Shown here: piece by piece, positions 21,960 to 27,253 of the stretch
Numbering within the stretch: the first letter of the stretch is position 1
How the letters are laid out: every line of letters begins with the position of its first letter
Source: an uncultured Chthonomonas sp.
GTDB taxonomy: Bacteria > Armatimonadota > Chthonomonadetes > Chthonomonadales > CAJBBX01
Direction of reading: 5' to 3'
DNA: 64,000 nucleotides
Assembly (NCBI GenBank): GCA_903951425.1
Contig: CAJBBX010000083.1
Location: 1 to 64,000, forward strand
Made by a program: the position numbers and the translations under genes
The notes under the pieces: model-generated
What the model saw: the letters and a program-made list of their open reading frames with translations, nothing else
The model's database searches: none
Told to the model about the DNA's origin: nothing

Positions 21960-22064
21960 GGGCGTCTCCCAGCGGCCCGGTTCGCCCGAGCGCGCCTCTG
22001 CAGACCCATTCGCCGCCGCCGGCCGAGGTTCCTGCCGCCGGCCCAATGTACCGATGGGCGCCGG

Positions 22065-23411
22065 CTACGTTCCGCTGTCCTTCGCCGGTGCGAAGAAGAA
22101 GTGTTCGGTGGCGGGCATTTCCAGCGCGGTCTGCATCGCCTCAGAGTAGATGTAGGCCGGCGCGCTGGTGTAGCCGTCGAGGTTGCGTAGCCTGATCAGC
22201 GCGGCCTTCTGGTCGACCGTGAGCCCCTTGTTTGCCTTGGCAAAGGCCATGGCATAGGCACGGGAGACCTCTCCGTCCAGCTCGCCGTAGCGTCGGCCCA
22301 GCGCGATCACCTTGGCCCGGTCGGCCTCTCCCTGGCTCAGGAACCGTCGGAGCTCCGTAGATATCTGGCGGCGTACCTGCACGATCTCACCCATGGCTTT
22401 CCGCTGTAGGTCGGGGATGGCCAGGATGCCGCTCTGCTGCTCCTCGCTCAGCAGTTCGATGAAGGCCTTGCCGCTGTCGCCCGTGACCGAGGTGCTGATG
22501 TTGAAGTCGCGCTTGCCCATGGCGGGCATATCCTTCATGTAGAAGCCGCCAAAGTAGGTGCCGTGCCGCTCGGGGCAGAAGTAGGTATCGGCCTCCACCG
22601 ATCCGGCGTACCAACTGAAGAACTCGCTGGCGCAGCTCATGTAGGCCACGTTCACGCGCTTCTCCGTGCCTCGGGGCAGCTTGTACTGCGCCATGTCCAC
22701 GTCGGGCCAGGTGTTGAAGTCGCCGAACTTCATCTTCGCCAGATAGGCCTTCTGTTCGTCCGTGAACGAGGCGGCGACCTGGCCGAATACCTTGGCCCGG
22801 CGGTAGCTGATCTCGGCGTCGAACGCGAAGATATCGCCCACGCACCGCGCGACCTCGGCCTGGTTCAGCCCGGCGCTGCCCGTCGGCACCTCGCCCGTCA
22901 ACTGCCGTCGGAAGGCCTTGATCAGGGGCAGACGCATCATGGCCAGCTTGGTCATGTCGGCCGCCTCCTGGCGAGCTTGCGCCTCGAAGGCCTGCTTGTT
23001 GGCCGGCGAGAGTACAGCCATCACGTTCGCGGCGACGCGGTCGAGGAACTTAGGATTGTGGCCCGTGCCGCCCGCGTCGATGTCCCGCATGTACTGGAAG
23101 CCGAAGAAGTCACAGACCTTGCCCGGAGGCAGGAACGTGCAGGCGCCGAAGTCGCCGGTGAGGAACGCGAGCCCGTTGAAGGCCACGGTGTGCAGCTGGG
23201 CGTTGTCCGAGATGGCCTGCTCGATGGAGTAGCGCTGCCCGCCCTGCCTGCCCTGCCCGCCGCCCGGTCCGCCCTGCCGCCTCTGGCCGTCCCCCGGTCC
23301 GCCATGCGGGCCGCCGTCATCCGGGCCCTGGGCCAGGCCGCCCGGCGCGACCAGCATGGCCAGGGCCGTGCCGAAGACGCCCATCCATATGCGCCGTCTG
23401 GTTCTGATCAT
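22065..23411 (-). CDS. Secreted protein with repeated LTXXQ-like motifs, function unknown
   Basis: An exported protein of 448 residues. The signal peptide (MIRTRRRIWMGVFGTALAML, then APGGLAQ) is followed by a Gly/Gln/Pro-rich linker. Four short motifs resemble the LTXXQ of CpxP/Spy periplasmic proteins: LSPANKQ, FTDEQKAYL, LSEEQQ and LTVDQKAAL. Segments such as FNGLAFLTGDFGA, CDFFGFQYMRDID, CPERHGTYFGGFYMKDM and SAPAYIYSEAM look strongly conserved, so this is probably a real but uncharacterised family. Four of its Cys residues lie in such segments. The ATG at 23411 has GGGAGGT upstream. It is divergent from an OmpR/HK pair with shared operators between them, which suggests it is a target of, or a feedback partner for, that system. 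Confidence 0.8.
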   Translation of the reverse strand: MIRTRRRIWMGVFGTALAMLVAPGGLAQGPDDGGPHGGPGDGQRRQGGPGGGQGRQGGQRYSIEQAISDNAQLHTVAFNGLAFLTGDFGACTFLPPGKVCDFFGFQYMRDIDAGGTGHNPKFLDRVAANVMAVLSPANKQAFEAQARQEAADMTKLAMMRLPLIKAFRRQLTGEVPTGSAGLNQAEVARCVGDIFAFDAEISYRRAKVFGQVAASFTDEQKAYLAKMKFGDFNTWPDVDMAQYKLPRGTEKRVNVAYMSCASEFFSWYAGSVEADTYFCPERHGTYFGGFYMKDMPAMGKRDFNISTSVTGDSGKAFIELLSEEQQSGILAIPDLQRKAMGEIVQVRRQISTELRRFLSQGEADRAKVIALGRRYGELDGEVSRAYAMAFAKANKGLTVDQKAALIRLRNLDGYTSAPAYIYSEAMQTALEMPATEHFFFAPAKDSGT

Positions 23412-23498
23412 TTCCGGTACCTCCCTGAGGCAGCTTGCATGCCGCCGATGCCTCGTGCGGCCATGCCTGCCGTTTGTGTCCCTATCGACGGCCCGAAC

Positions 23499-23570
23499 AT
23501 GACGGTAAGATGACGATACGAACATCGTGCTTGCCTCTGTCGGCGTCCGCATTCGTCATCTTGCCGTCAT
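23499..23570. promoter_or_regulatory. Phased four-half-site operator in the divergent promoter region
   Basis: ATGACG occurs at 23499 and 23510. Its complement CGTCAT occurs at 23554 and 23565. The steps are 11, 44 and 11 bases, all multiples of 11. The two 18-base arms (23499-23516 and 23553-23570) are inverted copies with 17 of 18 matches. OmpR/PhoB regulators bind direct repeats with an 11-base period, so this is a likely binding site for the neighbouring regulator. Confidence 0.75.
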
Positions 23571-23637
23571 CTCGGGTGGGTAGGCTCATGTCGTGCGCGG
23601 CCGGTATGCCGCTGTCCGGGCCCAAGGGGGATCCGCC

Positions 23638-24324
23638 ATGAGAGTGCTGGTGATCGAGGACGAACCGGCCATGGCCCAGGTCATCGGCTGGGGCCTCGAG
23701 CAGGCCCATTTCGTGGTGGATGCCGCCGGTGACGGTGAGACCGGCCTGCGCATGGCGCTGGAGGGCGCCTACGCGGCCCTCGTACTCGACCTGCTGCTTC
23801 CACGTCTCGATGGTTGGCGAGTTTGTGAGGCCCTGCGCTCGGGCCGCAACCGGGTGCCGATCCTCATGCTGACAGCGCGGGGCGACGTCGAGGATCGGGT
23901 ACGAGGGCTGGAGGCCGGCGCCGACGACTACCTGCCCAAGCCCTTTGACATGAAGGAACTCGTGGCACGCGTCCGTGCGCTGGTGCGGCGTGACCGGATC
24001 CACCGGACCCGCGTCATCCGTGTGGCCGACCTTGAGATCGACACGGCCGCGCGGCGCGTGACACGGGCCGGCGTCGAGATCGGCCTGAGCGCACGCGAGT
24101 ATGACCTGCTCGAGGCGCTCGCCTCCCGCGAAGGGCAGGTCCTCACCCGCGACGTTATCCTCGAGCGCATCTGGATGGACGACGACTCCTACTCTAACAC
24201 GGTCGATGTTCGTATCGGCCTCCTTCGCAAGAAGATCGATGCCGTCGGGTCGAGCAGGCTCATCCATACCGTGCGCGGAGTTGGCTATGTGCTCCGCTCC
24301 GACGCGCCCGAGGAGCCGGCATGA
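23638..24324 (+). CDS. OmpR/PhoB-family response regulator
   Basis: A two-component response regulator of 228 residues. The receiver domain (1-115) has the acidic pair in VIEDEP, the phosphoacceptor Asp in LVLDLLLPRLDGW, Thr in LMLTARG and Lys in YLPKPFD. The winged-helix DNA-binding domain (about 130-222) has LSAREYDLLEALA, LTRDVILERIW, NTVDVRIGLLRKKID and the closing HTVRGVGYVLR. The ATG at 23638 has AGGGGG upstream and fits the family start; the longer reading adds unrelated residues. The stop overlaps the kinase start. It probably controls itself and the divergent secreted gene through the 23499-23570 operator. Confidence 0.95.
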   Translation: MRVLVIEDEPAMAQVIGWGLEQAHFVVDAAGDGETGLRMALEGAYAALVLDLLLPRLDGWRVCEALRSGRNRVPILMLTARGDVEDRVRGLEAGADDYLPKPFDMKELVARVRALVRRDRIHRTRVIRVADLEIDTAARRVTRAGVEIGLSAREYDLLEALASREGQVLTRDVILERIWMDDDSYSNTVDVRIGLLRKKIDAVGSSRLIHTVRGVGYVLRSDAPEEPA

Positions 24325-25739
24325 GCGCCCGGCGCCGCCCTCGGCTCGGATGGTTGTCACTGCACTCGGTACGCACGCGGCTGGTTGTCGGCTCTACATT
24401 GGCGCTGGCGCTGGCGCTGGTGGCCATGGGCGCCGTTACACAGCACCTGGTCCGTACGTTCATGCTCGCCTCGGTTGATCGCGACCTTGAGCGCAAGGCG
24501 CTGCGGTTGGCCGAGCAGCCCTTCCCAAGGCCGGAGGAGGGGCAGCCACGCAGGTCGCCCGGACCCTCGGAGCCCGGACCCGGAGTGGAGGGCCGCGACC
24601 GGCCGCTCGTCATCGACCTGCAGGGCAATATCCTTCGCCCGGCCGGCGCGAAGACGGCCTGGGACGCCTCTGCGGTACGCCCGGCCATCGAGGGGCGCCG
24701 CATACTCCGCACCGTCACGCTCAACGGTAGCCCGTACCGGGTCCTCACGCGGCCTTTCCCGCCCGATAGCCCTCCGCTCGGCGTGGTGCAGGCGCCCTAC
24801 TCGCTGGCCGAGGTCGACCGCGCCGTCGGCAGCCTCAATCGAGCCCTGCTGGCGCTGGCGCCCCTGGCCCTGCTCGCGGCGGCCCTGGGTGGTTTCGTCC
24901 TCACCTCCAGGGCGCTGTCTCCGGTGCGGCGCATTGCCACGGTGGCCGAACGCATCGACGCCGACTGCCTGTCGGAACGGCTGCCCGTAGCCGGGCGCGA
25001 TGAGTTCTGGCAGCTCGCCGGTGTCATCAACGGTATGCTGGACCGCCTGCAGGAGCAGGTGGAGAGGGAGCGGCGCTTCACGTCGGACGCCTCGCACGAA
25101 CTCCGTACGCCTATCGCGGTCATCAAGGCCAACACGTCGCTATGCCTCTCCTCCACGCCCACAGTCGACCACTACCGCCGTTCCATGGAGGCCATCGACA
25201 AGGCCTCCGACGGCATGTCGCGCCTGGTGCAGGACCTGCTGCTGCTGGCCCGTGCCGACGCGGGCCGGCTGGGTCGGAGGACCGTGTTGCTGCCGGTCGC
25301 CGACCTGCTTCGCGAGGCGGCGCGCGTCTCCTCGCGCAACGGAGGCCCGTCGATCACCATCGAGCCCGTGGAGCCGGACCTCTGCCTGCCGGGCGACGAG
25401 GACCAACTCCTGCGACTGCTGACCAACCTGCTCGACAACGCCGTGCGCCACACGCCGCCGGACGGCTCGGTGCGCCTCAAGGCCGAGCGAACCGGCGACG
25501 AGGTGGCCCTGTCCGTCACCGACACCGGCGTCGGCATCGCGTCGGAGCACCTGCCGCATCTGGGTGAGAGGTTCTATCGCGTCGATGCGGCGCGCTCGCG
25601 GCCCGAGGGCGGCGCCGGACTGGGTCTGGCCATCGCCCGGCAGATCGTGGCGGCGCACGACGGCCACATGGCCATCGAGAGCCAGCCCGGCCAGGGCGCC
25701 ACAGTCCGCATCAACCTGCCAGCCCGGCAAGCCGCCTGA
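24321..25739 (+). CDS. Sensor histidine kinase, partner of the OmpR-type regulator
   Basis: A membrane sensor kinase of 472 residues. The first membrane helix is at about 20-42 and the second at about 170-195, enclosing a sensor loop of about 125 residues rich in Pro and Arg. A HAMP domain follows, then HisKA with H259 in SDASHELRTPIAV. HATPase boxes are intact: LLTNLLDNAVRHT (N), VTDTGVGI (G1), RFYRVDAARS (F) and GAGLGLAIARQIV (G2). The layout resembles QseC/CusS/TctE-type sensors. The ATGA overlap with the regulator stop indicates coupled translation. The signal sensed is unknown; the divergent LTXXQ-like secreted protein suggests an envelope stress. Confidence 0.94.
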   Translation: MSARRRPRLGWLSLHSVRTRLVVGSTLALALALVAMGAVTQHLVRTFMLASVDRDLERKALRLAEQPFPRPEEGQPRRSPGPSEPGPGVEGRDRPLVIDLQGNILRPAGAKTAWDASAVRPAIEGRRILRTVTLNGSPYRVLTRPFPPDSPPLGVVQAPYSLAEVDRAVGSLNRALLALAPLALLAAALGGFVLTSRALSPVRRIATVAERIDADCLSERLPVAGRDEFWQLAGVINGMLDRLQEQVERERRFTSDASHELRTPIAVIKANTSLCLSSTPTVDHYRRSMEAIDKASDGMSRLVQDLLLLARADAGRLGRRTVLLPVADLLREAARVSSRNGGPSITIEPVEPDLCLPGDEDQLLRLLTNLLDNAVRHTPPDGSVRLKAERTGDEVALSVTDTGVGIASEHLPHLGERFYRVDAARSRPEGGAGLGLAIARQIVAAHDGHMAIESQPGQGATVRINLPARQAA

Positions 25740-25780: not shown

Positions 25781-27253
25781 CTACGGGCGCTTGGCCTTGG
25801 CCGCCACCGTGTAGCTGTGGGCCACCTGGCCGTTCTTGCGTTCGCCGGTCTCGTCCTTCTCCAGGTAGGCGCGCAGGTAGACCACGCGCACGCCGGCAGG
25901 CCCCACATGCACTATCAGGTGGCCCGAGTTGGGCAGCGCCGTGCCCGTCTGGTAGGCGTCCTCGTTGAACGCTGTGTAGGTGGGGTCTGCCGGGCTGGGC
26001 GTCGACTGGTAGACCACGCCGTCCAGCTCTTGCCGGGCGAAGAGGTGGTCGTGCCCCTGGAAGAGGATCGTCACGCCCGCCTTCACCATCAGCGCATGGA
26101 TGGGTTGCGCCCAGCCGGGCCGCTTCTCGTCGAAGCGCCAGGCGCCGTTTCGGTCCTTGCCGCCCCACTCGTAGAGGCCGGCCGCCTCCACGCCGCCGCG
26201 GGCGCCGTTGCCGATGCCGCCCGTGAGCTGGTGGATAAAGACGAACTTGGTGCGCGCCGAGGAACTGCGCAACGTCTTGGCGAGCCAGTCGTACTGCTCC
26301 GTGCCCAGCGTCATGTTCCAAGGCTCGGAGCCGCCGCGCACCGACCGCGAGGTCCAGTAGGGGTCGAGTACCACGAAGAGCGCGTCGCCCCACTCCCAGG
26401 CGTACCAGTTCTCCAGCAGGCCCGCTTGCTTGTGTGGCGACGCGTTGCCGCTGTAGAAGGCATTGGGTATCGGGTTGGGGAAGAGCAGCTTGCGTCGCAG
26501 GACAGACCAGACCGGTAGCGGCGTACCGCCTCCGCCGCTGTGGGGTCCGCGGTCCTGCTCCTCGCCGTCGTGGTTGCCGACCACAAGGAAGAGCGGCGCT
26601 GCACTGCAGAGCGCGCTCAGGTAGGTCCGTTGCGCCGTGTACTGCCTGGCGGCGGAGGCGCGGTCGGCGTGCTTGCCGGCCATGAAGGTGTCGCCGAGGT
26701 CGATGTGGAAGTCCGGCTTGTCCGCGCCTGCGTTGCGCAGGCAGGTGCGGTAGGTCTCCGGGTCGCTGGCGCCGTCCAGATGCGAGTCTGCCGTCACCGT
26801 GAAGGTGAACGACGATCCCCGCTTGCGGCAGGTATGGAACGAGCCCGCCAGGCCCGCCTGCGGCAACGCCGGCCCCGCGTCGCTACGCGCCACGCGGTAC
26901 TCGTAGGCCGTGTCCGGCGTCAGCCCGGCCAACTCCAGCAGGGCGGGCTCGCCCGACTGCAGCGCTCGCTCAGGGCCGCGCTTCCATGCCGATGCGCCCG
27001 CCGTGCGGTACTCCACGCGGACGGACGCCCCGGCGCGCAGCAGGACGCTGAGGCCCACGGAGCGATCCGTGGGCCGGCAGAGGACCACGCTCGCCTCGGG
27101 TTCCGCCACATCGGTCTTGAAGATGCCCGGTTGCGGCGGCCCGCCCTGACGCCCTCCCGGCCCACCGCCCGGCCCGGGGCCTTGAGCAATCACAGGCGAC
27201 ACGAGGAGCAACAGCACGGCCGCGATTGCGGCGCGGGTCGACCTTCTGGGCAT
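25781..27253 (-). CDS. Secreted metallophosphoesterase with Fn3-like N-terminal domain
   Basis: An exported calcineurin-like phosphoesterase of 490 residues, resembling purple acid phosphatases. The signal peptide ends SPVIAQ and is followed by a Gly/Pro-rich linker. An Fn3-like domain spans about 48-145 (ASVVLCRPTDRSVGLSVL, LAGLTPDTAYEYRVAR). The catalytic domain from about 150 has all metal-binding blocks: TADSHLD, DLGDTF, VGNHDGE, FIHQLTGG and LFQGHDHLFA. It ends 41 bases from the convergent kinase gene and so is a separate unit. The linker composition resembles that of the LTXXQ-like neighbour. The substrate, perhaps a phosphomonoester or diester, is unknown. Confidence 0.9.
   Translation of the reverse strand: MPRRSTRAAIAAVLLLLVSPVIAQGPGPGGGPGGRQGGPPQPGIFKTDVAEPEASVVLCRPTDRSVGLSVLLRAGASVRVEYRTAGASAWKRGPERALQSGEPALLELAGLTPDTAYEYRVARSDAGPALPQAGLAGSFHTCRKRGSSFTFTVTADSHLDGASDPETYRTCLRNAGADKPDFHIDLGDTFMAGKHADRASAARQYTAQRTYLSALCSAAPLFLVVGNHDGEEQDRGPHSGGGGTPLPVWSVLRRKLLFPNPIPNAFYSGNASPHKQAGLLENWYAWEWGDALFVVLDPYWTSRSVRGGSEPWNMTLGTEQYDWLAKTLRSSSARTKFVFIHQLTGGIGNGARGGVEAAGLYEWGGKDRNGAWRFDEKRPGWAQPIHALMVKAGVTILFQGHDHLFARQELDGVVYQSTPSPADPTYTAFNEDAYQTGTALPNSGHLIVHVGPAGVRVVYLRAYLEKDETGERKNGQVAHSYTVAAKAKRP

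Follow-up and report, generated by a model that had tools for sequence, protein, structure and literature searches.

We found that an inverted pair of direct repeats, located between a two-component operon and a divergent gene for a secreted protein, very probably represents two operators for the adjacent OmpR/PhoB-class response regulator (RR). One would serve the operon of RR and its histidine kinase (rr-hk) and the other would serve the divergent gene, which encodes an LTXXQ-like protein. This reading is built on sequence comparison within the genus and across the phylum Armatimonadota.

Results

Two outward-facing boxes lie between rr-hk and a divergent secreted gene

The window (the whole 64-kb stretch of DNA that was analyzed) comes from an Armatimonadota MAG; among named records, MAGs of uncultured Chthonomonas and of Armatimonadetes are the nearest to it. 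We refer to this home genome as G000 and to two congeners as G001 and G002, the latter being the sister species. The RR gene (23638–24324, + strand) encodes Response_reg and Trans_reg_C domains (PF00072, E 1.3e-27; PF00486, E 2.3e-23), the OmpR/PhoB class by Pfam, with the recognition helix SNTVDVRIGLLRKKID. Its stop codon is overlapped, by four bases, by the start of the sensor histidine kinase gene (24321–25739, + strand), for which Pfam gives HAMP, HisKA and HATPase_c domains. The divergent gene (22065–23411, – strand) encodes a 448-aa secreted protein with a signal peptide, a Gly-rich linker and a helical body with LTXXQ-like motifs; its start is most likely at 23411, with 226 bp between it and the RR start (ATG at 23638). 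Convergent with the kinase gene is a gene for a calcineurin-like phosphoesterase (25781–27253, – strand), and genes resembling it adjoin LTXXQ-like genes in G044, G057 and G038.

Between the divergent genes, ATGACG starts at 23499 and 23510 and its complement CGTCAT starts at 23554 and 23565, in steps of 11, 44 and 11, just as a first-pass annotation of this DNA had listed them. They make up an inverted pair of ATGACG-N5-ATGACG arms (23499–23570, unstranded; arms at 23499–23516 and 23553–23570), and comparison of the arms agrees with the earlier claim that these 18-base stretches are inverted copies matching at 17 of 18 positions (94%); 36 nt separate them. In the 64-kb window, exact ATGACG-N5-ATGACG occurs twice, once on each strand, and nowhere but here, and dinucleotide shuffles of the window held 0.02 exact pairs on average and reached two in 0/100 cases. 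When two mismatches were tolerated, we found 6 pairs in the window as compared to 5.0 expected, which is chance level, so only the exact pairs are informative.

ATGACG is a frame-shifted view of a conserved half-site, (G/T)TCATC. In its natural register the element reads (G/T)TCATC-N5-(G/T)TCATC-N9-TAnnnT, an 11-bp OmpR/PhoB-type direct repeat at the –35 position; each arm makes up a whole box, and the boxes face outward, back to back. The predicted operator/promoter box of RR (23555–23586, + strand) consists of GTCATC (23555–23560), N5, GTCATC (23566–23571), N9 and TAGGCT (23581–23586) as the proposed –10. It scores 28.4 with a weight matrix (PWM) that was trained on 20 boxes, and both the 11-bp repeat and the N9 spacing to the proposed –10 are kept in G002 and G001. 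The predicted operator/promoter box of the divergent secreted gene (23483–23514, – strand) consists of GTCATC (23514–23509), N5, GTCATG (23503–23498), N9 and TCGATA (23488–23483) as a weak proposed –10; its PWM score of 12.3 is higher than that of all 100 shuffles of its own upstream region. In G000 and G002 this leftward –10 (TCGATA) is a poor one, and in G001 TAGCAT is found at the identical N9 spacing. OmpR/PhoB DNA-binding domains bind direct repeats with an 11-base period. The first-pass annotation had assigned the repeats to this type and had proposed that two regulator sites serve two divergent promoters; the 11-bp period is present within both arms and in relatives, and one predicted box reads outward each way, in support of both points.

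The box accompanies RR homologues across Armatimonadota

Directly upstream of RR in many relatives, we found TTTCATC-N4-TTTCATC and then TATnnT at 9 bp, with the 5′ end of the box mostly 40–100 bp upstream of the start codon. The strict box with –10 gave 14 matches in 61 relatives as compared to 0 for a reversed-pattern control, and 20 matches in 291 phylum genomes as compared to 1 for the control. These strict matches mostly precede RR, an RR paralogue, or genes of exported-looking proteins. Two strict hits in the home genome, on C5 and C87, are intragenic and were dismissed as chance. With the PWM, a box was found upstream of 39 of the 69 RR homologues in the phylum, which include paralogues and near relatives and so are not 69 independent cases, and at 14/35 among the loci outside training. 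The threshold was reached by 0/1380 shuffled upstream regions, and a box at this threshold was absent upstream of 30/69 homologues. A phylum search for divergent box pairs with a gap of 15–45 and strict half-sites, settings that left out the then-known cases and the window's own, returned none, which does not speak for the absence of such pairs. The earlier annotation had taken the neighboring regulator as the likely binder and had named loss of the repeat in relatives that keep the gene order as evidence against its proposal; in such relatives the repeat is conserved, and across the phylum the predicted box accompanies RR homologues, which favors this binder. Outside the phylum, RRs about 50% identical at L055 and L057 (labelled Aminicenantes) have TTCAT-N6-TTCAT upstream with a –10-like sequence slightly displaced.

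Beyond the genus, a box reading away from RR is present at 11 further RR loci in 10 genomes. At seven of these (in G004, G032, G026, G022, G018, G075 and G072), the gene behind the outward box is LTXXQ-like, four of the seven assignments scoring under the Pfam cut-off and relying on the motif pattern as well; PF07813 is above the cut-off for box-linked proteins in G030, G032, G018 and G072. Other genes behind the outward box encode a di-haem oxidoreductase (G030), a YHYH protein (G193), a Gly-rich protein (G031) and a protein similar to the calcineurin-like phosphoesterase of the window (25781–27253; this one at a second locus in G022). The RR-side box was absent in G031 and G072 by the PWM scan. 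Boxes also stand before exported-looking di-haem oxidoreductases, a YHYH-PBP protein and dioxygenase-like proteins at L126, L132, L178, L180 and L181 (G003, G030, G069, G079 and G080). The box-linked proteins of these three kinds suggest a wider secreted oxidative set. Judged from the genes behind the boxes, the targets of the phylum-wide module look like mostly Spy/CpxP-like (LTXXQ) and other exported proteins.

Boxes in the genus follow the secreted-gene paralogues

When the genome scan for paired sites that the first-pass annotation had put forward was run, the further targets turned out to be paralogues of the secreted gene and the paralogous regulator's own promoter. Genus boxes with no more than two mismatches precede LTXXQ-like paralogues of the divergent gene at G001 C111:25851 and 27664, at G002 C143:5019 and 3206, at G000 C175:27450 and, more weakly, at G000 L219:3666; the second LTXXQ box in G000 is the weaker one (16.9). 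In G001, three boxes and three genes (RR, LTXXQ1 and LTXXQ2) are grouped together. In G000 and G002, the LTXXQ1–LTXXQ2 cluster is on a contig other than that of RR and every gene keeps its own box; therefore, the arms separate together with their genes. Most of the RR intergenic region has diverged between G000 and G001, while the boxes can still be aligned. Since the flanks of the trans-located boxes align well too, part of the within-genus conservation is plain relatedness. LTXXQ2 of G001 (L037:1799–3892) is about 250 residues longer, and its C-terminal extension resembles PEBP-like (PBP) proteins by eye.

In G002, contig C65 (L109) has lost about 1.23 kb relative to the window (22039–23272), nearly all of the divergent gene, and the remnant keeps the signal-peptide start of this gene and both operator arms. 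The retention of the left arm despite the gene loss fits either a recent loss or an extra autoregulatory role of the arm.

On C118 of the home genome (L108:4383–5147), we found a paralogue of RR that shares 63% identity with it and has a TTCATC-N5-TTCATC-N9-TATCCT box of its own, which is identical in the three congeners. This paralogue lies beside a set of genes that, judged by how their sequences look, resemble those for type II secretion or type IV pili.

An LTXXQ-like secreted protein beside a regulator pair that does not descend from CpxRA

The secreted protein had been described as unrelated-looking, a description that we revise: the protein and its family contain several LTXXQ-like motifs, and simpler LTXXQ proteins are found in the same slot elsewhere. 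In the window protein the motifs are at residues 216, 321 and 397, with a degenerate one near 135, and two G001 homologues have five LTXXQ pattern matches each. The PF07813 match of the window protein (E 0.003, 18.7 bits) is below the gathering score of 24.3. Its predicted structure is of low confidence (pLDDT 53) and has two similar helix sets, and a PDB fold search with this model gave no significant match. A doubled Spy-like body would be a reasonable, unproven reading of the model.

By their closest family models, the kinship of RR and the kinase is with CusRS/CopRS-like systems and not with CpxRA. The best NCBIfam models are TIGR01387 for RR (237.7, cut-off 279.2) and TIGR01386 for the kinase (229.5, cut-off 292.55), both matched below cut-off. 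RR is also below the equivalog cut-offs of the PhoB model (193.7 vs 296.2) and the CreB model (162.8 vs 273), and its best PDB match is 1kgs. The kinase scores 116.7 (E 1.2e-33) against the CpxA model, with its cut-off of 486, and the CpxR model is not among the best 25 NCBIfam models of RR. The CpxR box is GTAAA-N5-GTAAA, which the conserved box here does not match. We rejected CpxRA by descent on the basis of these best models and the conserved box (G/T)TCATC-N5-(G/T)TCATC. Thus, of the earlier statement that the locus mirrors cpxRA-cpxP, the layout stands (rr-hk divergent from an LTXXQ-like gene) and descent from CpxRA does not.

A recognition-helix residue and the first base of the half-site vary together

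Among boxed homologues, Tyr-type RRs have T at the first base of the first half-site in 30/30 cases, and at the second half-site T or C, never G. The three Arg-type RRs with a box all belong to this genus and have GG, GG and GT as half-site first bases, and the single Lys-type RR (G022) has A and C. Arg for Tyr at the recognition-helix residue together with G for T at the first base is found only in this genus, in which the paralogous RR keeps Tyr and its TTCATC box in all three species. In the crystal structure of M. tuberculosis PhoP, recognition-helix Tyr217 contacts the first two bases of the half-site at its 5′ edge (PMC4832192). By reading of the sequences, the varying RR residue aligns with Tyr217; in the register that we used, the bases contacted by PhoP correspond to bases two and three of the present box, and Arg would therefore have to reach one base further. 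A hunt for independent Arg-type regulators returned G080 C15 only, which has no box upstream; the matched frame in G073 was not a response regulator. The specificity switch comes from one lineage and one evolutionary event and is therefore a lead. We regard it as possible rather than probable that RR of this genus changed its DNA preference beside its paralogue: Tyr gave way to Arg, and G replaced T as the first base of the half-site, both in the promoter of RR itself and in almost every target box. This would be a one-residue, one-base switch that insulates sister two-component systems and that spread to unlinked target promoters.

Discussion

In the mechanism that we propose, each arm would be one tandem-dimer site that replaces the –35, about 9 bp upstream of the –10. 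Head-to-tail dimers of phosphorylated RR probably bind at both arms and would recruit RNA polymerase outward both ways, with class II activation at each arm. To the right, RR would act on its own rr-hk operon in positive feedback; to the left, it would turn on the secreted LTXXQ-like gene, and through like boxes the same RR may also control the unlinked secreted-gene paralogues in the genus. By analogy with CpxRA-CpxP/Spy, the kinase may respond to a condition in the envelope or outside the cell, and exported Spy-like proteins with a putative chaperone-like function would be the output. Comparison with PhoB, CreB and PhoP leads us to infer that activation is of class II, that RR activates its own operon and that exported Spy-like proteins are induced along with it.

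Could the arms form one unit, a cooperative four-site operator or repression loop mainly for rr-hk with the arms held on one helix face? The first-pass annotation had made all spacings multiples of 11 and had placed two dimers on one helix face. Relatives keep the 11-bp step within the arms; however, the distance from ATGACG to CGTCAT, counted on the sequences, is 44 in G000, 45 in G002 and 43 in G001 (5′-end gaps of 40, 41 and 42 in the three congeners), and a fixed phasing of the two arms at 44 bp is not supported. The "multiple of 11" also hinges on the frame, because in inverted arms a one-base move of the frame changes the distance by two; from TCATC core to TCATC core the distance is 47, not 44. 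Across the phylum the 5′-end arm gaps range from 7 to 98 bp, with a weak 10.5-bp trend that would suit a single unit (p about 0.02–0.05; Rayleigh p 0.02–0.04 at 10.5 bp, n 9–12); several thresholds and periods were tried, and the trend is not relied on. Survival of the left arm in G002 after most of the left gene has gone also suits a single unit, but most boxed RR homologues are without a second box, and a left-type box stands alone before the unlinked LTXXQ genes in G000 and G002. Together with the unfixed gap, this makes a single unit unlikely.

A regulator other than RR, for example the C118 paralogue, might be the main OmpR-type protein bound to real operators at these boxes. The promoter of this paralogue has TTCATC-N5-TTCATC, its –10 is spaced as at RR, related regulators recognize related boxes, and a paralogue of similar specificity could share sites. 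Nevertheless, the box accompanies the RR of the locus across the phylum, and RR targets in the genus mostly have G first as against the TTCATC of the paralogue promoter in all three species, with Arg as against Tyr in the helix, and we consider another main binder very unlikely. The 17/18 complementarity around a 36-nt loop could also be taken as an RNA hairpin, a terminator or a cruciform. Yet the G001 arms keep TCAT/TCAC direct repeats and have lost much of their mutual complementarity, lone arms precede other genes, and, as both arms precede the proposed –10s, a transcript from either promoter would not include its own arm; what is conserved is a direct repeat with a –10, not a stem, and we give the hairpin almost no weight. 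Two operators for the adjacent RR, one for each direction, remain the reading that we prefer.

Several known systems resemble this one in part. PhoB sites overlap the –35 (PMC3348028), and the PhoB half-site is TGTCA(T/C), as quoted in PMC3264566. The likeness to PhoB lies in the 11-bp direct repeat, the GTCAT-like half-site, the –35 overlap and a box upstream of the regulator's own operon; in contrast to PhoB, no phosphate genes are among the targets found here, the kinase is CusS/CopS-like and RR is below the PhoB model cut-off. R201 of the PhoB helix is not conserved in RR here. The cre/blr tag of CreB/BlrA is TTCAC-N6-TTCAC, in one case situated at roughly –80 to –65 relative to the start codon (PMC4689548), and the box here can be read as TTCAT-N6-TTCAT, although RR is far under the CreB cut-off (162.8 vs 273) and the targets differ. 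The direct repeats bound by M. tuberculosis PhoP are 7 bp long and strictly 4 bp apart, an 11-bp period (PMC4832192); PhoP shares this period with the box here, and its Tyr217 position is the residue that varies here, but its half-site is TCACAGC and its regulon is different. The Spy homologue CpxP is under strong induction by its own system, whose kinase it damps (PMC6737893). As in enterobacterial CpxRA-CpxP/Spy, an rr-hk operon and the gene of a periplasmic LTXXQ-family protein diverge from each other and share their control (predicted here), whereas RR and the kinase here are nearest CusRS/CopRS, the box is another one, the LTXXQ proteins are larger and Gly-rich, and other exported proteins also occupy the slot. 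The CusRS/CopRS/SilRS heavy-metal systems supply the best models for RR and kinase (TIGR01387/TIGR01386), but both matches are below cut-off and no metal-efflux genes were seen under the boxes here.

In the literature that we searched, we found no published Armatimonadota operator, two-component regulon or TTCATC box. Taken together, the regulatory element is genuine, conserved and of a familiar type, and it seems to be undescribed in this lineage. It gives a predicted box, a promoter geometry and a target list that recur across a little-studied phylum. The contrast of Tyr and Arg with T and G offers a simple, testable case of paralogous regulators separating their targets. The locus also suggests that the coupling of a sensor pair to a divergent Spy-like exported protein, as known from Cpx, either arose or was retained in a lineage that is unrelated and uses another regulator subfamily.
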